From a virus, in the IMG/VR virus record IMGVR_UViG_3300010371_000104, positions 1 through 26,305 of that record: a DNA stretch of 26,305 nucleotides. One strand, written 5' to 3'. The notes under the pieces were generated by a model. It searched no databases. It saw only the letters and a program-made list of their open reading frames with translations, and was not told the DNA's origin. Below, one piece after another: positions 1,950 to 26,214 of the stretch. The stretch's first letter is position 1. Each line of letters begins with the position of its first letter. A program made the translations under genes and the position numbers.

Positions 1950-2288
1950 GTGGAGTTCACGGACTCCGAAATCCAGGCCATCCGGCAGGTTGCGCCGGCT
2001 GACCTGTTGACGTTCAGCCAGTGGCTGTTCCTGAATCGCAAGGGCTATGCGTGGCGGATGGGTGACCATCACCGCGTCATGGCCGATGCGCTGATGCGGG
2101 TGTTCGATGGCGACTGCAAGCGGCTGATCATCAATATCCCGCCGCGGTACTCCAAGACGGAGTTGGCCGTGGTGAATTTCATGGCCTGGGCACTGGGCAA
2201 TGTGCCGGATGCGGAGTTCATCCACACCAGTTACAGCGCCGACTTAGCTGCGAACAATGCTTGGCAAGCGCGAGCTGGTGCAGCATGA
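1950..2288 (+). CDS. terL: Terminase large subunit, N-terminal fragment (frame-disrupted)
   Basis: This frame starts at GTG 1950 and carries the ATPase start of a large terminase: LIINIPPRYSKTE (about residues 59-71) is the deviant Walker A loop of this family. Homology runs to about residue 105 (NNAWQA), then the frame goes off and stops at 2288 after a few meaningless residues. The next motif expected in the family, RELVQ, is in the frame 1 nt away at about 2268. Restoring two bases (GC) in the GCGCGAG run near 2265-2271 would give an aligned ARELVQ. So this is one half of a broken gene whose other half is 2257-3330. As it stands it cannot work alone. Confidence 0.85.
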   Translation: MEFTDSEIQAIRQVAPADLLTFSQWLFLNRKGYAWRMGDHHRVMADALMRVFDGDCKRLIINIPPRYSKTELAVVNFMAWALGNVPDAEFIHTSYSADLAANNAWQARAGAA

Positions 2289-3330
2289 CGAGTTCCGGGC
2301 AATCTTTCCGGGCATCCTGTTGCGTTCCGACAGCACTGCGCGCAATCACTGGCGCACGGACTCTGACGGTTGTGTCTATGCAGTCGGTTCGGGCGGAACG
2401 ATTACAGGCTTTGGTGCAGGCAAGCATAGGCCCGGGTTCGGTGGCGCGATCATCATCGACGATCCCCATAAGGCGGATGAAGCGCGAAGCGACATCAAGC
2501 GAAAGAACGTGATCGAGTGGTTTCAGAACACGCTGGAATCGCGCAAGAACGGACCCGAAACACCGATCATCCTGATCATGCAGCGGCTGCATGAGGATGA
2601 CTTGGCGGGTTGGTTGCTACGTGGTGGAAATGGCGAAACGTGGGAGCATGTCTGCCTGCCGGCGATTCGGGATGACGGGAAGCCGCTCTGGCCAGCAAAG
2701 CATGATTTGCCGGAACTTCGCCGCATGGAGCAGGCGAGCCCCTACGTGTTCGCCGGGCAGTACATGCAACGACCGGCACCGCTGGAGGGTGGTCTGTTCA
2801 AGCCGGATCAGCTGCAGGTAATCGATGCAGTTCCCGCTGGCGAGATTCGTTGGTGTCGCGGCTGGGACTTGGCAAGCGTGACTGAGGACGGCGACTGGAC
2901 GGCGGGTGGCAAGCTGGGTCGCTTGGCGGACGGGCGCTACATCATCGCCGACATGACGCGACTGCAGCGCGGCCCGGACGAGCGCGATGCAGCCATCGTC
3001 AACACAACGGCACTTGACGGCAAGTCAGTCGTAGTGAGCTATCCGCAAGACCCTGGACAGGCCGGCAAGACGCAGGCCTTGTACATGACGCGCGCCCTTG
3101 CCGGCTATCGCGTCAAGACAAGCCCAGAGACGGGCGACAAGGTGACACGTGCCGAACCACTCGCCGCTCAGGTGAACGTCGGCAACGTGATGATGCTGCG
3201 TGGACCGTGGAATGAGGCACTTGTGAACGAAATGCGGATGTTCCCCAACGGCAGTCATGACGATCAGATCGATGCGCTAAGCCGCGCGTTCGCTGAAGTC
3301 ATGGCGCCGCGCCGCAGTTGGTTCGGCTAA
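2257..3330 (+). CDS. terL: Terminase large subunit, C-terminal fragment (ATPase end plus nuclease)
   Basis: This open frame supplies the rest of the large terminase: GSGGTITGFGAG, the Walker B and catalytic region AIIIDDPHKADEA, the coupling-like segment LIMQRLHEDD, then the RNase H-like nuclease with acidic positions in RGWDLASVTEDGDWT and at the end SHDDQIDALSRAF. With the upstream half the total is about 460 residues, normal for a terminase. The apparent ATG 2257 is probably not a true start, because it lies inside the conserved region shared with the other half. The enzyme would pump DNA into the prohead and cut concatemers. The split is a frameshift caused by mutation or by sequencing error. 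Confidence 0.85.
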   Translation: MLGKRELVQHDEFRAIFPGILLRSDSTARNHWRTDSDGCVYAVGSGGTITGFGAGKHRPGFGGAIIIDDPHKADEARSDIKRKNVIEWFQNTLESRKNGPETPIILIMQRLHEDDLAGWLLRGGNGETWEHVCLPAIRDDGKPLWPAKHDLPELRRMEQASPYVFAGQYMQRPAPLEGGLFKPDQLQVIDAVPAGEIRWCRGWDLASVTEDGDWTAGGKLGRLADGRYIIADMTRLQRGPDERDAAIVNTTALDGKSVVVSYPQDPGQAGKTQALYMTRALAGYRVKTSPETGDKVTRAEPLAAQVNVGNVMMLRGPWNEALVNEMRMFPNGSHDDQIDALSRAFAEVMAPRRSWFG

Positions 3331-3340
3331 CAGGACATTC

Positions 3341-3898
3341 ATGGCTTTCTGGCGCAAGACCAAAACCGAGGCTCCTGCGCCATCGGTGACGAAGCGTGTA
3401 TCCAGCTGGTTCAGCACGCATGCGTTCGATGGGGAACCTCGCCGCGTGTCCATGCTGGAATATATGCGCGCGTTGCCGAAGCCGCAGACGGATGGCTCAG
3501 TGAGCGCCATGGATAGCTGGGACGATGACAGCTTCAAGCTGTTCGGCGACATGCAGACGATCCTTTCCGGTCCAATCATGGACTGGTATGGCGCGCAGTC
3601 GTTCATCGGTCACCAACTCGCCGGCATCGTGGCGCAGCACTGGCTGGTCAACAAGGCCTGCTCCGTGCCGGCGCGTGATGCGGTGCGCAAGGGCTATAAC
3701 ATCGTCACGGAAGACGGCGACGACCTCGACGAGGAAGCTGTCAAGCTGTTCAAGCGATTCGACCGCAAGTTCCGCATTCAGCGGCAATTGTGGACTTCGT
3801 GCGCAAGGGCCGGATCTTCGGTGTGCGCGTGGCGATGTTCAAGGTCGAGTCCACCGACAAGGACTATTACGAAAAGCCGTTTAACCTCGACGGCGTGA
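3341..3898 (+). CDS. Portal protein, N-terminal fragment (frame-disrupted)
   Basis: This frame begins 10 nt after the terminase stop with [14 protein letters not shown] and contains the N-terminal part of an HI1409/DUF1073-type portal: [27 protein letters not shown], here cited in part as [15 protein letters not shown], followed by [12 protein letters not shown] and [15 protein letters not shown]. After RQL (about 3789) the frame becomes arginine- and serine-rich nonsense and stops at 3898. The conserved continuation is in the next frame. One missing base in CAATTGTGGAC, for example a third G making TTGGTGG, would join RQL directly to [11 protein letters not shown]. No slippery sequence is present here. 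Confidence 0.85.
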
Positions 3899-4809
3899 CG
3901 AAGGGAAGCTACAAGGGCATCGTTCAGGTCGATCCCTACTGGACGGCGCCGCAGCTCGATCAAGCCGCCGCCGCCAGTCCCGACACGCTGCACTTCTACG
4001 AGCCGACGTGGTGGATCATCAACGGCAAGAAGGTGCATCGCTCACATCTGTGCATCTATCGCCACGAAGAAGTGGTCGATGTGCTGAAACCGCAGTATCT
4101 GTACGGCGGTGTGCCGCTCCCGCAGCAGATCATGGAGCGCATCTATGCGGCGGAGCGCACAGCGAATGAAGCGCCCGAACTCGCCATGACCAAGCGCACG
4201 AATGTCTGGCTGACGGACATGGAAAAGGTCATGGCGAACAGCCAGGATGCCGTGGATCGCCTGAACCTTTGGACGCAGTTCCGCAACAACTACGGCGTGA
4301 AGTTGGGCGACAAGGATAGTGACGAATTCCAGCAATTCGACACCACGCTAGCCGATTTCGACGCGCTGATCATGACGCAGTACCAGTTGGTGGCGGCCAT
4401 CGCCTGCATGCCCGCCACGAAGCTGCTCGGCACGAGTCCGAAAGGCTTCGGCGCTTCGGGCGAGTACGAGGAATCGAGCTATCACGAAATGCTGGAGTCG
4501 ATCCAGGACGACGCCTTGACACCGTTGCTGGAACGCCACCATGCGCTCGTGATGCGGTCCTTCATCGCCCCCAAAGGCATCGATCCAGTTGCAACGACGA
4601 TCGTCTGGAACCCGCTGGATACGCCGACCGCGAAGGAGTTGGCCGATACGAACCTGGTCAAGGCGCAGGCTGGTCAGGCGCTGATCCAATCCGGCGCGAT
4701 CACGTCCGAGGACGAACGCAAACGCGTGGCGACCGACAAGGAAAGCGGCTACCACTCCATGGGCTTGAGCGACACCGATGTCGATGAAGCCGAACCGGAA
4801 GCCGATTGA
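3790..4809 (+). CDS. Portal protein, C-terminal fragment (HI1409/DUF1073 type)
   Basis: This frame continues the portal from [17 protein letters not shown] through the body of the protein: [38 protein letters not shown] and [20 protein letters not shown] are typical of this portal family. Together with residues from 3341 onward the joined protein is about 490 residues, as expected. The portal ring sits at the unique vertex, passes DNA during packaging and holds the neck. GTG 3790 is an accidental start candidate within a conserved segment, so independent translation is unlikely to give a working protein. The end overlaps the MuF gene by 32 nt. Confidence 0.85.
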
Positions 4810-17807: not shown

Positions 17808-18541
17808 TGGTCTCCGACAGCTCCTTCATTGACAGCACGGCCGAAACCAATCCATTCACAGCGTGGGCATTCGCCTTTCGTGCCGCGATGGCGCAAGTGC
17901 GCACGACAGTTCCCGTGAAGGTAGTGGCTGTGCATGGCGGAGGATTGGCGCCCGTGGGTCGCATTGATGTGCAGCCGCTGATCCAGCAAACGGACAGCAG
18001 CGGCAACATCATGGCGTTATCGGTGTTGTATGGCTTGCCCTATCTACGCTGGCAGGGTGGCGCGAGCGCGGTGATCCTCGATCCCGCCGTGGGCGACATC
18101 GGACTGGCATGCTTCGCGGATCGCGACGTGTCTGCCGTGGTCGCCAGCGGACAGCAGTCACCGCCTGGATCGAATCGCCGTTTCAGCCTTGCAGATGGCT
18201 TCTACATGGGCGCGACACTCAATGCGCAGCCCACGCAATACCTGCAATTCGATCCAACGAATGGCATCACGCTGAATTCACCAATCGCGATCAAGGCGCA
18301 GATCGGCACGGATGCCAATGCCGCGCGCATCGTGATGAACGGCTCCGGCATCGTCCTGAGCTTCGGCGGTCACAGCATCACGATCAACAGCAGCGGCATT
18401 GCGATAAGCGGCGCGGTGACGGGCGACAACACGGCGACGTTCACGGGCGAGGGCACGTTCAACGGTGGCCATACCGTCAGCCAGCACAAGCATGGCGGGG
18501 TGCAGTCGGGCGCGAGCCAGACGGCGACGCCTACGGGTTAG
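17807..18541 (+). CDS. Membrane-puncturing spike, gp138-type, with HxH tip
   Basis: ATG 17807 (TGATG junction) gives 244 residues; an alternative start further upstream would only read through the hub gene. The N-terminal half has the OB-fold pattern of gp138: KVVAVHGGGLAPVGRIDVQPL, LPYLRWQGGASAVILDPAVGD (in part PYLRWQGG) and GDIGLACFADRD. The C-terminal half is a repetitive beta-helix (NGSGIVLSFGGHSITINSSG in part) ending in HTVSQHKHGG with His227 and His229, the HxH pair that in this family binds an iron ion at the tip. Its stop codon overlaps the stop of the opposite-strand gene. Confidence 0.85.
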   Translation: MVSDSSFIDSTAETNPFTAWAFAFRAAMAQVRTTVPVKVVAVHGGGLAPVGRIDVQPLIQQTDSSGNIMALSVLYGLPYLRWQGGASAVILDPAVGDIGLACFADRDVSAVVASGQQSPPGSNRRFSLADGFYMGATLNAQPTQYLQFDPTNGITLNSPIAIKAQIGTDANAARIVMNGSGIVLSFGGHSITINSSGIAISGAVTGDNTATFTGEGTFNGGHTVSQHKHGGVQSGASQTATPTG

Positions 18542-19275
18542 CCTGAAACTTGGTTAAGTCTGAATGTCACAGGAGTTCCCATGTGCGTTCCGGCCGGCAG
18601 GTTACACACAATGCTTGCCACGGCCTGCGCGGCGGATGCATCAAGCTCCGGGAAGCCGGAGGACTTATAAACATGGATATCGGTAGGGTGCTCATTGGCG
18701 CCTACCGTCAGCGTCACATAAACGACCCCCTGATGGCCTTGGCGAATGGCTTGGACGGGATAGACGGCATTTGGGGTAGAGCATGGTTTAGATGTGGAAT
18801 GTGACATTGTTTCCACAATGGGCGCACGAACCATCTTGCATGCGTGCTGTACGGCAACAGCCAGATTCGTGTCCGGAATAAGCCTGACCGTTGGGCCCCC
18901 GGCATCACCGGCAATAGGACCATGTTCATCAAATGATTCCGACATACCCATTTGCACATAGTTGGGAGGTGTTCCGGTCGCTCCGCAGACTGCATTGACG
19001 CTCACGATGCTGATGTTTGTAATGCTTCCATCAACGCCTTTTTCTGCCGTTTTAAGCGAAACAACGATTCCGAGTTGCGGTTTTTTTACCAGCACGAAAG
19101 TAGTCCAAAGCCTATATTGATCGGTGTCGGACAACTCCTTCCATCCTTGAGGCGAAACGGCACTGGCATACATGGATGGTGTCCAGTTTGCGACATCGCT
19201 TATCGACTGGCCTGCGCTCGCCCCGCTTGATACCGATAGCAAAAGTATTGCGAGATAGACAATCGATCGTTTCAT
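18538..19275 (-). CDS. Secreted TonB_C-domain protein, probable lysogenic-conversion (moron) gene
   Basis: On the minus strand, ATG at 19275 (reverse complement of 19273-19275) has GGGGGA six to eight bases upstream; a start 39 nt earlier lacks this. The 245-residue protein begins with a signal peptide (MKRSIVYLAILLLSVSSGASA, shown in part as SIVYLAILLLSVSS) and ends with a TonB C-terminal domain: YPVQAIRQGHQGVVYVTLTV, FPELDASAAQAVASIVCNLP. There is no N-terminal anchor or proline-rich spacer, so it is not a full TonB. At least four cysteines could form disulfides. The base composition is clearly lower in GC (near 50% in lines counted) than the neighbours. Oppositely oriented and nested between spike and gp25, it looks like an acquired host-modifying gene. 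Confidence 0.75.
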   Translation of the reverse strand: MKRSIVYLAILLLSVSSGASAGQSISDVANWTPSMYASAVSPQGWKELSDTDQYRLWTTFVLVKKPQLGIVVSLKTAEKGVDGSITNISIVSVNAVCGATGTPPNYVQMGMSESFDEHGPIAGDAGGPTVRLIPDTNLAVAVQHACKMVRAPIVETMSHSTSKPCSTPNAVYPVQAIRQGHQGVVYVTLTVGANEHPTDIHVYKSSGFPELDASAAQAVASIVCNLPAGTHMGTPVTFRLNQVSG

Positions 19276-19295
19276 AAATCCCCCAGGCGTTGGAA

Positions 19296-19655
19296 ATGGC
19301 CCAAACACTACCACTGAACCCCGCCACGTGGGATCTCCAGCTCGACAGCAACGGCAACCTGTCGCTGTCAGGCAAGGACTACAGCATTGCGCAGGATGTT
19401 GCGTCGGCCATCCGGACGTTCAAGGGTGAGTGCTGGTATGACGTGACGCTGGGCCTCCCGTACTTCCAGTCCCTGCTGGGCCAGTATCCGCCGCCGTCCT
19501 ACATCATCTCCATGATCGAAAAGGCCGCGTTCACCGTGGCTGGCGTCCTGGCGGTCACCGTCATGCGCCTTGCGCTCAACGCCAATCGCCAGCTGACCGG
19601 CTCCGTGGTCGTCGTCAGTGCGGATTCCGAAACCCCTCTCATCGTGAGCTTCTGA
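19296..19655 (+). CDS. Baseplate wedge protein, gp25-like
   Basis: I choose ATG 19296 over the TTG at 19290. The 119-residue protein has NPATWDLQLDSNGNLSLSGK, ASAIRTFKGECWYDVTLGLPYF and SLLGQYPPPSYIISMIEKAA, the gp25 pattern with the aspartate- and tyrosine-containing helix and the 'GE..yd...G.py' loop. In T4 and relatives it is part of the wedge that starts sheath assembly. It begins again the tail operon after the inserted minus-strand gene and is one base from the J-like gene. Confidence 0.8.
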   Translation: MAQTLPLNPATWDLQLDSNGNLSLSGKDYSIAQDVASAIRTFKGECWYDVTLGLPYFQSLLGQYPPPSYIISMIEKAAFTVAGVLAVTVMRLALNANRQLTGSVVVVSADSETPLIVSF

Positions 19656-21482: not shown

Positions 21483-23246
21483 ATGCAGAAATCCAATGCA
21501 CCGATCAAGCTCACCGTCGCCTTTGCCTCTGGCTCGGGCGCGGGACCGGTCAACACGATTCCCTTGACGACAAACCCGACAACGGGAGGCGCCAGCTATC
21601 AGACCGGCTTCACCTCGGTGAACATGGAGCCCATCGCCTCGGGCGGCGTACCGCCTTACGGCGCGGACGTGAACGGCTTGTTCCAGAATCAGACCAAGGC
21701 GCAAATCTGGCAACAGGCTGGGTATATGTACCCCTTCGATGCCACCTTCGCAGGCAACGCGAACATCGGCGGCTATCCGGCCGGTTCGGTCCTGATGATG
21801 GGGAGCGGCAAGGGTGTCTGGCTCAACCAGTCAGACAACAACACGACCAGTCCCGATACGACAGGTTCGGTTGGCTGGTTGGGTATGGCGGCGGCAGGCA
21901 CGTCCACGATCACCACCACGGGCGGAACGACCACGCCTGATCCTTCCGTGCTCGGCGTCACTACGCTAATCGTCACGGGCGCGCTGACTTCCAATGCAAC
22001 GTTGGTCCTCCCTCTCACCGGGGGCGCCCGCTGGATCGTGGTCAACAACACCACGGGCAGTTATACGCTCACTGTACAGGGGTCTTCTGGGTCGGGAGTG
22101 TCTATCACCTCCGGCGCGCCGATTTCCGTGTTCACGGATGGGACGAACTATTACGGCGTTTCGGCGAATCTGTCTGGCGCTTACCTCCCTATCGGCGGCA
22201 CGGCCGTTGCTGCGACGAAGCTTGCTACGGCGCGCACGATTTCCATGACAGGCGATGTGTCCTGGACAAGTCCGGTTTTCGACGGGACGGCCAACGTGAC
22301 CGCCGCAGGCACCATTGCGGCTGGCGCCGTGAATCTTGCCAAGATGGCAAACTTCCAGGCCAACAGCTTGATGGGTAACCCCACCGGCAGCGCAGCCACT
22401 CCCTCCGCCATCACCCTCCAAAACGGCTTGATCTTCAGCGGGACGAACCTCGGCCTTGGCTCCATCACGCCGAGTAGCGTAGCGGCTACCGGAAACAGTT
22501 CCTTCGCGGCGTACCTCGCGGTCAATCAAGCCATTGCGGCTGCATCACCCCTGGACGTGCAAACGGGATCAGGTCGAGTTTTTATCGGGGCCCTATCTTC
22601 GGTTAATTCAATTATTTCGGTCAACTCAGCGAATAGCAGCTACACGCCGCTCACCATTCAAGCCAGCGCATACAACTTCACGGGTGCGGGAACAGCAGCA
22701 TTCTCAGGACCTGTGACAACAACAACTTTGACTTCGTCAAACAACGTAGTAGCGAATACCAATTTTCTCTCTTCTAATAATTTCTGGCTAGGAGCGACAA
22801 GCACAGCTGGAACGATGCTTCTCCGCCCGAACGGCGTGGGATCAACTAGCGGGCAGCTTGAGCTGGACAGTACAGGTAATGTGACGATCAATGGCAGCCT
22901 TGTGGTAACCGGAACGATCAACTTCGGTACTTCGGATGCCACGCTCAAGGAACTGGGCGCACCGGTCGAGCCGCAACCCTTCCACCGGGTGCCGTACTAT
23001 GCCTATGCCCGCCGCGACACGGGCGAGCTCGGCTGGGGGCCAACGGCGCAGGATGTGGCGACCATCGCCCCGGAGTACACGCGCCTACAGCGCCTGAGTG
23101 TGAATGGCAACGACCGAGACGTGCTGCTGCTGGCCAAGGAGCAGATCACGATGGACACGGCCTTCTGGGCCGGTCGGCAGGTGGACTTGCTCTGGGGGGA
23201 AGTTGCCAACCTGCGCCGGCAGTTGATTGACGCGGGGGCACACTGA
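21483..23246 (+). CDS. Tail fibre with C-terminal S74 self-cleaving chaperone domain
   Basis: The N-terminal part (about residues 1-135) is the baseplate-attachment type: TTGGASYQTGFTSVNMEPIA (in part ASYQTGFTSVNM), SGGVPPYGADVNGLFQNQT and GKGVWLNQSDNNTTSPD. The middle is Ser/Thr/Gly-rich repeating beta-structure. The end (about 482-587) fits the peptidase S74 intramolecular chaperone: TSDATLKEL with Ser484 and Lys489 at the family's usual spacing, GWGPTAQDVATIAPEY and a closing coiled helix. The fibre trimer folds, then cuts off this chaperone. Positions about 22570-22790 have clearly lower GC than the rest, suggesting module exchange in the receptor-binding shaft. Confidence 0.85.
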   Translation: MQKSNAPIKLTVAFASGSGAGPVNTIPLTTNPTTGGASYQTGFTSVNMEPIASGGVPPYGADVNGLFQNQTKAQIWQQAGYMYPFDATFAGNANIGGYPAGSVLMMGSGKGVWLNQSDNNTTSPDTTGSVGWLGMAAAGTSTITTTGGTTTPDPSVLGVTTLIVTGALTSNATLVLPLTGGARWIVVNNTTGSYTLTVQGSSGSGVSITSGAPISVFTDGTNYYGVSANLSGAYLPIGGTAVAATKLATARTISMTGDVSWTSPVFDGTANVTAAGTIAAGAVNLAKMANFQANSLMGNPTGSAATPSAITLQNGLIFSGTNLGLGSITPSSVAATGNSSFAAYLAVNQAIAAASPLDVQTGSGRVFIGALSSVNSIISVNSANSSYTPLTIQASAYNFTGAGTAAFSGPVTTTTLTSSNNVVANTNFLSSNNFWLGATSTAGTMLLRPNGVGSTSGQLELDSTGNVTINGSLVVTGTINFGTSDATLKELGAPVEPQPFHRVPYYAYARRDTGELGWGPTAQDVATIAPEYTRLQRLSVNGNDRDVLLLAKEQITMDTAFWAGRQVDLLWGEVANLRRQLIDAGAH

Positions 23247-23869
23247 TGGCGCTTTCGATCCTGCGCAACGGCGTGCCGCTCGATCAGCTCTACGGCACCA
23301 AGGGCGCATCGACGGCAGCGGCCACGGGTTGCCTGCAGAACGGCGTCGATGTCAACCAGTACCTGCTAGCCCTGGCGGACGGCAAGGCACTGGGATTCAA
23401 CGCTGGCCTCAGCAAGAACGGCACGGACTTCAGTGCCATCTTCGGCATTCCAACGGGCAACACGCCACTGCCCATCAACGGCGGAACTTACAATGCAGTT
23501 CTGACGCGTAACGGATCATCCGGTGCCCGTTGCACCATTACCTTCACCGCGAACGCATCTACATGGGTTCTGGCGCCTTCTGGCGCAGCCGGAACGATCA
23601 GCCCTTCCGGCAACTTCGCCAGTGGAAGCATTCCATCTGGAGCCACCAGTGTCAGTTACACATGGTCGAATATCAGTGGGAGTGTATCGCCGTCCAACAC
23701 GCCGCTAACTGCGCTTACAAGCAGCCCATCCGCGATCGTTCAATGCACATCGGCGGGGACCATCGGCACCAGTTCCGGAAGTGCCACCTTGACCATCGTG
23801 TTCTACAACAGCGGGGGTACGGCTATAAGCACCACGACTTGTAACCTTGGTGTGTCTATTACCAATTGA
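23246..23869 (+). CDS. Tail-fibre-linked protein with NG repeats and beta-rich C-terminal domain
   Basis: This 207-residue protein starts at the overlapping TGATG. The first 75 residues contain three similar units: RNGVPLDQLYG, QNGVDVNQYLL and KNGTDFSAIFG, each with N-G and an acidic or small residue followed by aromatic or hydrophobic positions. The rest is a Ser/Thr/Gly/Ile-rich beta-domain (ITFTANASTWVL, ATSVSYTWSNISGSVS, ATLTIVFYNSGG), perhaps Ig-like or fibre-tip. It is the last gene before attP and may be a receptor-binding or fibre-assembly partner. Family not recognised. Confidence 0.7.
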   Translation: MALSILRNGVPLDQLYGTKGASTAAATGCLQNGVDVNQYLLALADGKALGFNAGLSKNGTDFSAIFGIPTGNTPLPINGGTYNAVLTRNGSSGARCTITFTANASTWVLAPSGAAGTISPSGNFASGSIPSGATSVSYTWSNISGSVSPSNTPLTALTSSPSAIVQCTSAGTIGTSSGSATLTIVFYNSGGTAISTTTCNLGVSITN

Positions 23870-23925: not shown

Positions 23926-23936
23926 AATAATGGACA
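23926..23936 (+). repeat. Putative arm-type integrase site 1
   Basis: AATAATGGACA. The exact reverse complement occurs on the other side of the core at 24094-24104. Confidence 0.55.
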
Positions 23937-23944
23937 GACCTCGG

Positions 23945-23955
23945 TTTAATGGACA
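23945..23955 (+). repeat. Putative arm-type integrase site 2
   Basis: TTTAATGGACA, matching site 1 at 9 of 11 bases and in the same direction, 19 bases away from it start to start. Confidence 0.5.
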
Positions 23956-23976
23956 ATGAGACTTGCACGACGCTCG

Positions 23977-23989
23977 CAAGTGATTGATT
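23977..23989 (-). promoter_or_regulatory. IHF-consensus site beside the att core
   Basis: Read on the minus strand this is AATCAATCACTTG, a full match to the IHF consensus WATCAANNNNTTR. It lies between the arm repeats and the core, where IHF bends DNA in lambda-type attP. Confidence 0.6.
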
Positions 23990-23994
23990 CTGAA

Positions 23995-24041
23995 TGCCGG
24001 CAGCAGGAATCGAACCCGCGACCTACTGATTACAAATCAGT
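23995..24041 (-). other. attP core: 3' half of a tRNA-Thr(TGT) gene
   Basis: On the minus strand these 47 bases read from the anticodon stem (ACTGA TTTGTAA TCAGT, anticodon TGT) through the T arm (GCGGG TTCGATT CCTGC) to the acceptor strand TGCCGGC and discriminator A. The 5' half of the tRNA is absent: the bases further upstream on that strand do not form a D arm or acceptor. A phage that keeps the 3' part of its target tRNA rebuilds the gene on integration. So tRNA-Thr(TGT) is the likely attB, and crossover should occur in the anticodon-stem-loop segment. Confidence 0.85.
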
Positions 24042-24052
24042 CCTCGAAAATC

Positions 24053-24065
24053 GCTCAAAGCCTTA
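24053..24065 (+). promoter_or_regulatory. Weak IHF-like site on the other side of the core
   Basis: GCTCAAAGCCTTA matches 7 of the 9 specified positions of the IHF consensus. It is noted because of its symmetrical place, not for its strength. Confidence 0.25.
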
Positions 24066-24093
24066 TGTGGCGCGGCCTGCGAGCGATTGACGG

Positions 24094-24104
24094 TGTCCAT
24101 TATT
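24094..24104 (-). repeat. Putative arm-type integrase site 3 (inverted)
   Basis: TGTCCATTATT is the exact reverse complement of site 1 (11 of 11 bases). Confidence 0.55.
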
Positions 24105-24154
24105 GGTGCGTTTCGTGCCTCGGGAAACCGCATTCCTGCGTGGGCGTCGCGCCG

Positions 24155-24163
24155 ATAATGGAC
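24155..24163 (+). repeat. Putative arm-type integrase site 4
   Basis: ATAATGGAC shares nine bases with sites 1 and 3. It ends two bases before the integrase stop codon. Confidence 0.45.
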
Positions 24164-24165
24164 GC

Positions 24166-25122
24166 TCAGCGGGTCGGTTTCGCCGGATCGGCCAGGACGT
24201 GATACCGGCGCTTCGTGATGCGCGCATCGGCGTGCCCGAGCAGTTCCTGGGCCCGAGCCAGCGGCACATCCGAGCCTGCCTTGCGCCGCAGATCGTGCAT
24301 TGTCACGTTGACCACCCCTGAGCGCTCGCGTACGCGCGCCCACGTCGATTCCGCGCCGTCGAGCGTGTAGGGGCCGCGGCGCCCACGGAACAGCGCCTGA
24401 GCGCCAATGCGGCCGGCTGCCGCCGCCTTCCACACCGTGCGCAACTCATCGCTCCATTCCACGAACTGCGGTTCCTGCGTCTTGCCCATCGTCCAGCCGA
24501 TCCCGGCATCCGTCGCCGCCGTAAGCGGCAGGGCGATCGCATCACCCACGCGCATGCCGGTGAGGTACAGGAACCGGATCAGCAGGTCGAAGGGGTGCCG
24601 CGCGGCCAGCACCAGGGCGGCCAGCTCGTCGTCGGTGACGTAGCGTCGCCGCGGCTTCTCCGTGTTGCGCACGCGCATGCCCTTGGCCGGGTTGCCCCCC
24701 TTGTAGCCGATGTTCGCCGCGAAACCGTAGACGGCGCGCAACAGATCACGCTCGCGATTACCCGCCACGTTGCCGCGCTTCTTGAGATAGGTGTAGACGT
24801 GCGCCTGCGTCACATCCTCCAGGCGCATCGTGCCGAACACTGCGCCCAGCGTCGTGGCCTGCCGGCGGTAGTCGGCCAGCGTCTTGCTGGCCAGCTTCCC
24901 AGCGCGGTCGTCCAGGTAATGCGCGATGGCATCCGCCACGGTCAGCACGGGCTTGCTGGCCTGCCCTTCGAACTGGGCCCACTGGCGCAGGGCTTCGCTG
25001 TAGTCGCGACCCAGCGGCTTCCACGCCTGTACTCCGTCCACGCTCGCGAGGTAGTAGAACGCCCCTCTCCGCATGACCATGCGGCGCGGGAGGTGCGTAT
25101 TGTGCTGGCGCTTGCGGCCCAT
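24166..25122 (-). CDS. int: Tyrosine recombinase integrase
   Basis: This 318-residue protein has an N-terminal arm-binding part (basic GRKRQHNTHLPRRMVMRRG in part), a core-binding SAM-like domain around 60-155 (TVADAIAHYLDDRAGK, RNRERDLLRAVYGFA), and a catalytic domain with all six signature residues: Arg191 (TGMRVGDAI), Lys214 (GKTQEP), His276 and Arg279 (MHDLRRKAGSD), His297 (LLGHADA) and the nucleophile Tyr307 (KRRYHV). It catalyses site-specific integration at the adjacent attP core. The gene runs toward attP and overlaps the DUF4224 gene start by TGATG, so they are co-expressed. Complete and apparently active. Confidence 0.95.
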   Translation of the reverse strand: MGRKRQHNTHLPRRMVMRRGAFYYLASVDGVQAWKPLGRDYSEALRQWAQFEGQASKPVLTVADAIAHYLDDRAGKLASKTLADYRRQATTLGAVFGTMRLEDVTQAHVYTYLKKRGNVAGNRERDLLRAVYGFAANIGYKGGNPAKGMRVRNTEKPRRRYVTDDELAALVLAARHPFDLLIRFLYLTGMRVGDAIALPLTAATDAGIGWTMGKTQEPQFVEWSDELRTVWKAAAAGRIGAQALFRGRRGPYTLDGAESTWARVRERSGVVNVTMHDLRRKAGSDVPLARAQELLGHADARITKRRYHVLADPAKPTR

Positions 25123-25334
25123 CAGGCGGCGTCCAGAGCCTTCCAGTTCGGCTCGGCGCGGGTGCGTTCGGGAGCGTCACGGTAGCGCAGGACCGCGGCG
25201 CGTTCCACCAGGGGTCGCCCCGTGCCGTTGGGGCGGAAGGGAACGCCCATCGCCGCGAGGCGCGCACACTGCGTGCTGCGCCGCTTGGCTCCGGTCAGGT
25301 CGGCCACTTCGTCGGGAGTGAGCCAAGGGGTCAC
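25122..25334 (-). CDS. DUF4224 protein, probable excisionase/recombination directionality factor
   Basis: This 70-residue protein uses GTG at 25334, chosen because it overlaps the preceding stop (GTGA). The sequence TPWLTPDEVADLTGAKRRSTQCARL (in part WLTPDEVADLTGAKRRS) is the DUF4224 helix-turn-helix, with GVPFRPNGTGRPLVERAAVL and the ending EPNWKALDAA. DUF4224 genes usually precede integrase genes, and the winged-helix look makes an excisionase role likely. It overlaps the integrase start, which supports this. Confidence 0.8.
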   Translation of the reverse strand: MTPWLTPDEVADLTGAKRRSTQCARLAAMGVPFRPNGTGRPLVERAAVLRYRDAPERTRAEPNWKALDAA

Positions 25335-25906
25335 GACGTCGCCTCCTCGTAGGCCTTGGTGATGCGGTGGAACTGCTCGGCGTCGCCGCCGCGGTCCGGG
25401 TGGTGCTGGGAGCGTAGGCGCCGGTAGGCCGATTCGATCTCGTCGCGGCCGGCCGTCGCTGCCAGCCCGAGCACGTCGCTCCAGTGCTCGCTACCGCCTG
25501 CGCCAGGGAGTGCGGTGAAGCCGGTGAATGCCCGTTCCAGCATGTCACTGGCGCCCCACCGAGTAATGCCGCGCAACGCCGCGATGGTCAGCTCGATCGC
25601 GCGCATGTTGGCCTCCAGCGACGTGTATCGGTCGCAGGCGAAGCACATCGGCTTGCCCTTGCGTTCAAAGTAGACCGCGATGCCCTTGTCATCGATGGCG
25701 CCCTGTTGTGCGTAGGGGAGGCCATCGCGACGCAGCTGCATGTTGCTGCTCATTACGATGCGGCGACCACCCATGCGTCCGATCTCGGCAAGCAGACCGT
25801 CACGCGCACGGCCGAGCGGCATCTTGAACGCGCCGGTCTCTCGGCGATACGATGGCGTGCGTTCCCAGCCAGCCGGCCAGGTGAGGGGATAGGCTTCGAC
25901 CGCCAT
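25331..25906 (-). CDS. J-domain (DnaJ-like) phage protein
   Basis: ATG at 25906 overlaps the stop of the previous gene (TGATG) and has GGGAGGGGGA just upstream; the longer frame from 25966 lacks both. The 191-residue protein has an N-terminal region of unknown fold containing one CxxC (CFACDRY), a helical middle (LEANMRAIELTIAALRG), and a C-terminal J domain at about 141-191 with the HPD loop at 169-171 (QHHPDRGG) and the final helix HRITKAYEEA. There is no Gly/Phe or zinc region of true DnaJ. It likely recruits host DnaK for phage replication or for changing a protein complex. Confidence 0.8.
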   Translation of the reverse strand: MAVEAYPLTWPAGWERTPSYRRETGAFKMPLGRARDGLLAEIGRMGGRRIVMSSNMQLRRDGLPYAQQGAIDDKGIAVYFERKGKPMCFACDRYTSLEANMRAIELTIAALRGITRWGASDMLERAFTGFTALPGAGGSEHWSDVLGLAATAGRDEIESAYRRLRSQHHPDRGGDAEQFHRITKAYEEATS

Positions 25907-26214
25907 CACTCCCCCTCCCGCATCGCGGCGTCGATGGCCTGATCCAATTCGTCCCAGTAAGTCCATTCAGGACCTTCGCCACGATCACGACCAATCATCT
26001 GATCGCCATTTTCTCGCAGCCACCGATACCTCTCCGCGTCCTTCCTTAATGCCTCGACCTCGGCGTCTCGGGAGGCGTGGGCGGCTTGGTAAGCGTTCCA
26101 TGCGAGATCGATTTCGAAATAAGCGTAATCCGTGACAATGCCATCACGATGGATAGGCAGGTTATGATCGCGCGCCCACGCATCAAACTTCGCCCGCAGT
26201 TCGTCGGTGGTCAT
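25906..26214 (-). CDS. Small phage early protein with RYRWLRE motif (102 aa)
   Basis: This protein reads TTDELRAKFDAWARDHNLP, then EIDLAWNAYQAAHASRDAEVE and the helix RKDAERYRWLRENG, a phrase common in small phage proteins of unknown function. It is acidic and likely helical, with no membrane part. It overlaps both neighbours: ATGA at its start with the preceding gene and TGATG at its end with the J-domain gene. Confidence 0.75.
   Translation of the reverse strand: MTTDELRAKFDAWARDHNLPIHRDGIVTDYAYFEIDLAWNAYQAAHASRDAEVEALRKDAERYRWLRENGDQMIGRDRGEGPEWTYWDELDQAIDAAMREGE

Follow-up and report, generated by a model that had tools for sequence, protein, structure and literature searches.

The window analysed here, the whole 26,305-base stretch of an IMG/VR virus record, carries a non-coding stretch between its tail genes and an integrase gene (int), which raises two questions: whether this stretch is a complete attachment site (attP) for that integrase, and what decides the arm-type sites that the enzyme would hold. 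Arm-type sites are experimentally known for few integrases and footprinting is the usual method. A conserved layout makes such sites readable from sequence. The rightward genes of the window encode terminase, portal, tail and baseplate proteins; a tail-fibre-like gene ends at 23246 and a further ORF at 23869, after which the non-coding stretch leads to int and the adjoining xis-like gene (Table 1). The DUF4224 protein encoded by the latter is likely an excisionase. The sequence features together supported a complete lambda-like attP at 23926–24164, between the tail genes and int/xis.

Table 1. Predicted attP features and the adjoining int and xis-like genes, in window coordinates.
Feature	Position	Strand	Detail
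Arm-type site d (outer member of 19-bp pair)	23926–23936	+	AATAATGGACA
Arm-type site c (inner member of 19-bp pair)	23945–23955	+	TTTAATGGACA
Full IHF consensus	23977–23989	−	AATCAATCACTTG; begins 34 bp from site c, on its core side
attP core (3′ half of tRNA-Thr(TGT), without CCA)	23995–24041	−	47 bp
Anticodon loop, putative crossover	24030–24036		inside attP core
Partial IHF-like site, H′-like place	24053–24065	+	2 mismatches; 38 bp from site b
Arm-type site b (inverted)	24094–24104	−	TGTCCATTATT on + strand
Arm-type site a	24155–24164	+	adjoining int stop codon
int, lambda-like tyrosine recombinase	24166–25122	−	318 aa; R18/R19, proposed arm-reading residues
xis-like gene	25122–25334	−	DUF4224; PHROG excisionase families

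A first-pass annotation had read from this stretch the 3′ half of a tRNA-Thr(TGT), an exact 11-base inverted pair, two further related copies, and one full and one partial IHF site, and all these coordinates hold. The sequence AATAATGGACA occurs at 23926–23936 (+) and 24094–24104 (−) as the inverted pair, and the related copies lie at 23945–23955 and 24155–24163 (both +). Exact ATAATGGAC was found three times in the whole window, always inside the 240-bp attP stretch; allowing up to one mismatch gave seven copies against 2.17 expected, and the one-mismatch copies comprised one in the stretch and three elsewhere. The geometry of the four sites scored 54, the maximum among 300 dinucleotide shuffles of the region being 42. 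The IHF consensus WATCAANNNNTTR is matched in full twice within the 26.3 kb, where shuffled sequence gives 0.16 on average; the first-pass annotation had put the chance of a full match in 240 bases at under about 1%. One match is that beside the core, and the other, at 22524–22536 within the tail-fibre gene, is probably a chance match. The partial IHF site is present with its two mismatches, and this predicted P′-side site is weak. Sites b and a also make up a 16-nt inverted repeat of 88% identity (24095–24110 and 24148–24163, 37 nt between) near the int stop codon.

The tRNA nature of the core was indicated by an Rfam tRNA model match at 24001–24067 (−) with 25.4 bits, under the gathering score of 29, and by the anticodon TGT (Thr) of the half gene; ARAGORN returned no complete tRNA. 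An exact copy of the 47-bp core is present in another IMG/VR phage (L003), and a 46-bp stretch 91% identical to it was found in P. aeruginosa phages, where some copies are annotated as tRNA-Thr; Pseudomonas phages JBD88b and DO4 carry such a stretch. The identical core in L003 (14579–14625) belongs to a different phage and is followed by CCA; a related Int is absent from that record, and the arm motif was not above chance in the part examined. The route to attB proposed in the first-pass annotation, a search of host genomes with the 47-bp core, gave no exact match in 398 Pseudomonadota genomes.

The closest INPHARED relative of the window Int was 33% identical, and a single-protein search gave no relative in IMG/VR and one distant relative in GTDB genomes. 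Using a profile made from distant phage integrases, relatives of up to 51% identity were recovered, and a middle-domain profile added one at 58%. A profile built from 16 integrases, among them that of the window, matched lambda Int over residues 1 to 341 (2.8e-28) with the arm domain covered, and full-length lambda Int was also the best fold match of the predicted structure (mean pLDDT 86.6). The N-terminal domain is modelled with strands at 15–18, 21–28 and 31–38 and a helix at 41–51; Pfam gave no named arm domain at this terminus, and PF00589 matched the protein at 1.1e-11. The catalytic R-K-H-R-H-Y set was present, with R191, K214, R279 and H297 invariant, H276 nearly so, and Y307 read from the alignment. 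By sequence and structure model, the protein qualifies as a lambda-type (heterobivalent) tyrosine integrase with a separate predicted N-terminal arm-binding domain.

The first-pass annotation had proposed a search for clusters of the motif near related integrase genes. IMG/VR profile scans (the best loci of each scan, at most 80, among the matches listed), together with the window and five named phages, gave at least 395 loci with 247 different integrases, many contigs being repeated. The regions behind int stop codons were searched blindly, with no motif supplied, for four mutually similar 10-mers in the arrangement of the window and in both orientations; the limits on pair spacing (19), b–a distance (50–75) and c–b distance (130–185) partly fix the spacings observed. 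The search was passed by 24 of 166 regions that were long enough and by 0 of 830 shuffled regions, the full layout not being reached at threshold in 142 of the 166. Three units were added by hand, L018, L189 (score 46) and L048 (20-bp pair), making 27, in which L375/L380/L383 and L396/L398 are near-duplicates of more than 90% identity. The b–a spacing was 60–69 bp in 26 of the 27 units and 52 in L219, and the c–b spacing was 142–157 in 19, 164–175 in seven and 123 in one; the two main c–b classes, about 20 bp apart, would keep helical phase. The outer site also adjoins the int stop codon in several relatives. L021 had no motif copies, and L024 and L025 had part of the set only.

Although the tRNA was not used in finding the units, all 27 have a tRNA 3′ half between b and c, always in the same polarity, and by reading, its identity begins at the anticodon arm. 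The targets are tRNA-Asn in eight units and Thr (TGT, CGT), Pro, His, Arg, Lys and more in the others. The IHF consensus was found between b and c as a perfect match in 8 of 27 units and with at most one mismatch in 14, against means of 0.085 and 2.1 and maxima of 2 and 7 in 200 rounds of plain letter shuffles. The IHF start was 32–36 bp from site c in seven units (window, L018, L180, L188, L189, L252 and L350), and matches with 0 or 1 mismatch also stand at b+35 in L018 and L180. The phage tRNA-Thr copy of the window stops at the discriminator base (23992–23995) and is followed by TTC and no CCA; CCA is present in 25 of the 26 other units and is also missing from L189. A tRNA-Thr gene rebuilt without CCA would require CCA addition by a host enzyme.

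Across the relatives the layout is kept and the motif varies with the integrase, which agrees with the first-pass suggestion that the motif is a candidate arm-site code of this enzyme. That annotation had also pointed to homologues using the same tRNA as the place where the repeats should be found: in L194 (Int 50.6% identical, tRNA-Thr(TGT)), two exact copies of TAATGGAC and a mismatched one, TTATGGAC, are spaced as expected, and the outermost site is degenerate. L175 (Int 58%), a user of tRNA-Thr(CGT), has the different motif CTTCYCCTAT. In G400, the contig of L181, the site is split: a 45-bp tRNA-Asn core is present twice, one end having a complete tRNA-Asn followed by the 19-bp pair and then int, and the other having sites a and b before the tRNA 3′ copy, with a different sequence beyond the core. 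This arrangement supports these ends as the attL and attR expected of an integrated phage. The 5′ limit of tRNA identity and the attL/attR of G400 together place the probable crossover at the anticodon loop. The L186 contig has overlapping ends and carries the whole attP, consistent with a circular genome.

The orientation of attP against int was found to vary. Site a adjoins the int stop codon in the window; among the 27 units the pair side faces int in 17 and the remainder are mirrored, and on a quick tree of 30 integrases with open forks the orientation changes at least seven times. L181 and L186, whose Int proteins are 88% identical, are colinear at 81% DNA identity through the xis-like gene and int up to the stop codon; immediately beyond it, 112 bp that contain the pair arm and the core align in reverse at 94%. 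As read from these alignments, attP turns over as one block relative to int, with the break at the int stop codon in L181/L186. Such an inversion would reverse the polarity of the prophage at the tRNA, so that site and enzyme behave as separable modules.

When the sites were ordered by integrase, the residues aligned to R18 and R19 of the window Int were found to vary together with bases 5 and 2, respectively, in the motif T-G-T-C-C/T-A. Arginine at residue 18 goes with TGTCC and lysine mostly with TGTCT; among integrases with K or R at this position, H or R at residue 19 goes with TGTC and a small residue with TTTC/CTTC, and exceptions exist to both. Users of tRNA-Asn differ in motif, with TGTCT in L022, L018, L180 and L188, TGTCC in L017, L020, L023, L181 and L186, and CTTCT in L189; these comparisons support an arm motif that goes with the Int N-domain and not with the tRNA. 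Integrases that are more distant and lack K or R at residue 18 (L344, L350, L354, L367, L375, L380, L383, L389, L394 and L395) keep the four-site layout with motifs quite unlike these.

Of the 143 integrases carrying K or R at residue 18, 67 had sites that could be called; in these, K stood with T at base 5 in 43, C in 5, A in 4 and G in 3, and R with C in 12. The isolated phages phiAH14a and PHB09 both combine K-H at residues 18 and 19 with TGTCTAA beside int. Fourteen rows without a second copy were dropped, six of them fitting (K-T 5, R-C 1) and eight contrary (K-A 4, K-G 3, K-C 1), with four contrary H/R cases for base 2 among the dropped rows (H-T 2, H-A 1, R-T 1). L018, L048 and L175 were added by hand, L175 being entered as C although base 5 is C in some and T in others of its four sites. 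The resulting 56-row set has R-C 11, K-T 40, K-C 5 and R-T 0, and for residue 19 against base 2 all 52 rows with H, R, S, G or A are consistent. Among 316 Int columns, residue 18 was the best predictor of base 5 both in the K/R-filtered scan (z 19.9, next 6.6), where filtering restricts what column 18 can contain and so inflates its z, and without the filter (z 10.0, next 4.9; 34 thinned of 45 rows). Residue 19 was the best predictor of base 2 in the filtered scan and not in the unfiltered one.

The residue rule had been fixed before the last three scans, its residue-19 part being worded for all integrases and not for the K/R ones alone. For the new loci detected blind whose residue 18 is K or R, the rule gave the correct base 5 in 7 of 10 readable cases (wrong in L203, L396 and L398; L213 was unreadable) and the correct base 2 in all 9 cases for which it made a prediction. 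Among the readable new loci with another residue 18, the residue-19 rule was correct in 1 of 12 (L332) and was contradicted by L225, L346, L353, L367, L381, L384, L386, L391, L395, L399 and L402, loci in which the frame is unsure and the motifs look unrelated. The wider residue-19 rule failed, and this lowers the odds of a two-residue code. L036, L203, L396 and L398 have K at residue 18 yet C at base 5 (TGTCCAATA, TTTCCAAAA, TGTCCCATA); L396 and L398 also alter base 6, and the residue alignment of L203 is doubtful.

The attP may be real and the residue-18/19 pattern a product of phylogenetic hitch-hiking, not of a reading code, which we consider a substantial possibility but a somewhat doubtful one. 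Phylogenetically independent pairs are few: for residue 18 against base 5, five pairs gave 2–4 in the same direction, 0 opposite and 1–3 without difference, and for residue 19 against base 2 three of three agreed, numbers with which neither test can reach 0.05. The four K-with-C loci, the failure of the residue-19 rule outside K/R and the lower rank of that residue in the unfiltered scan speak for hitch-hiking as well. Against it, residue 18 stands far above other columns for base 5 in both scans, residue 18 and base 5 change seven times each on a quick tree built without the N-domain (open forks), and the new K/R loci mostly followed the rule. On balance we lean slightly towards a single attP blueprint in a large family of lambda-like integrases (arm pair, IHF site, tRNA anticodon core, inverted arm site, outer site), a self-contained cassette that would invert as a unit and change its tRNA target freely, with the motif of the K/R branch set by residue 18 (R with C, K with T at base 5) and residue 19 (H/R with G, small with T at base 2). 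If true, arm sites would be predictable from integrase sequence, and the residue-to-base correspondence allows arm choice by Int to be tested directly.

The repeats could alternatively be excisionase (Xis) or repressor operator sites. Lambda Xis sites are spaced like direct repeats about 20 bp apart, much as the pair on one arm here, and the excisionase-like DUF4224 gene adjoins int; but both arms carry copies, whose placement relative to the core is fixed, and base 5 is best predicted by a residue of the Int N-domain, in scans that scored Int sequences only, which leaves this explanation improbable. That the repeats arose by chance beside a decayed tRNA fragment with no attachment site is barely credible, for although short repeats arise randomly and three one-mismatch ATAATGGAC copies lie elsewhere in the window, the geometry score was reached by 0 of 300 shuffles, the layout recurs in 24/166 regions against 0/830, and a natural attL/attR pair exists in G400.

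We hold it very probable that 23926–24164 is the attP of a temperate phage with a heterobivalent lambda-like Int and predicted arm and IHF sites. The catalytic and core-binding part of Int would work on the tRNA-Thr core and most likely cleave it in the region of the anticodon loop, while its N-terminal domain would hold sites a and b on the int side and c and d, 19 bp apart, on the far side. An IHF bend at 23977–23989, and perhaps also at 24053–24065, would join arms and core. Integration would split attP such that the c/d arm and the tRNA 3′ half rebuild the tRNA and the a/b arm goes to the other junction, and the DUF4224 protein, as the likely excisionase, may bear on direction control.

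In lambda, xis adjoins int, as the xis-like gene does in the window. Like lambda Int, the window Int would be heterobivalent, with its domains in the same order and a three-strand arm domain predicted at the N terminus; it is about 20% identical to lambda Int in a fold alignment. The label of lambda-type attP in the first-pass annotation fits the protein family and the likely mechanism and does not fit the layout, which has four arm sites, one of them inverted and two forming a pair 19 bp apart, in place of the five of lambda (P1, P2, P′1–P′3) and a core in the tRNA anticodon arm. According to the part of the account available, the att site of lambda measures about 240 bp, with arm and IHF sites to either side of its core (PMC4880445), an arrangement resembling the window, where IHF sites are predicted from sequence. 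For mycobacteriophages of cluster K (CrimD, Adephagia, Anaya) and cluster J (Omega, BAKA), excerpts likewise describe arm sites that were predicted from repeats flanking a tmRNA or tRNA core. Unlike the window, CrimD and cluster J have two site pairs and Pixie has six sites, with other motifs; those excerpts mention neither IHF nor inversion of attP against int (PMC3203893, PMC3706429). The cluster K authors, in the same excerpts, linked arm-site differences to residues 17 and 19 of the Int N-domain (PMC3203893), so the idea of residue-set specificity has a precedent. For cluster J, the available text puts attP 3′ of int and the end of attB in the anticodon loop, and it reports no systematic site difference with N-domain changes (PMC3706429).

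The Pseudomonas plasmid pHS87b uses the same kind of target, with 45-bp identity to a tRNA-Thr 3′ end; unlike the window, its integrase is P4-related and its site lies upstream of int, and the part of that account available does not describe arm sites (PMC4739549). KplE1 IntS of E. coli resembles the window in its tRNA (argW) core, arm-type P′ sites, IHF and RDF, as far as the excerpt goes, but attL there overlaps the intS promoter (PMC2951348), whereas the window attP lies behind the int stop codon. Searches of open-licence PMC papers gave, among the matches listed, nothing relevant for the lambda arm consensus string, the cluster K paper as the sole relevant one on arm-domain residues, and no description of the layout, its inversion or the residue pair 18/19.

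Some minor features of the window were also recorded. An ORF of 258 aa on the opposite strand inside the tail module (18538–19314, −) has no PHROG match and is presumably akin to a secreted cargo gene with a TonB-C-like end. The ORF adjoining xis (25331–25966, −) encodes a C-terminal DnaJ domain and matches PHROG 9210 (function unknown). The terminase large subunit is spread over two overlapping ORFs in different frames, 1950–2288 (PHROG match) and 2257–3330 (Pfam match), which may reflect a sequencing error or a real frameshift. The portal is possibly split too, 3790–4809 matching Pfam next to a neighbouring ORF at 3341–3898.
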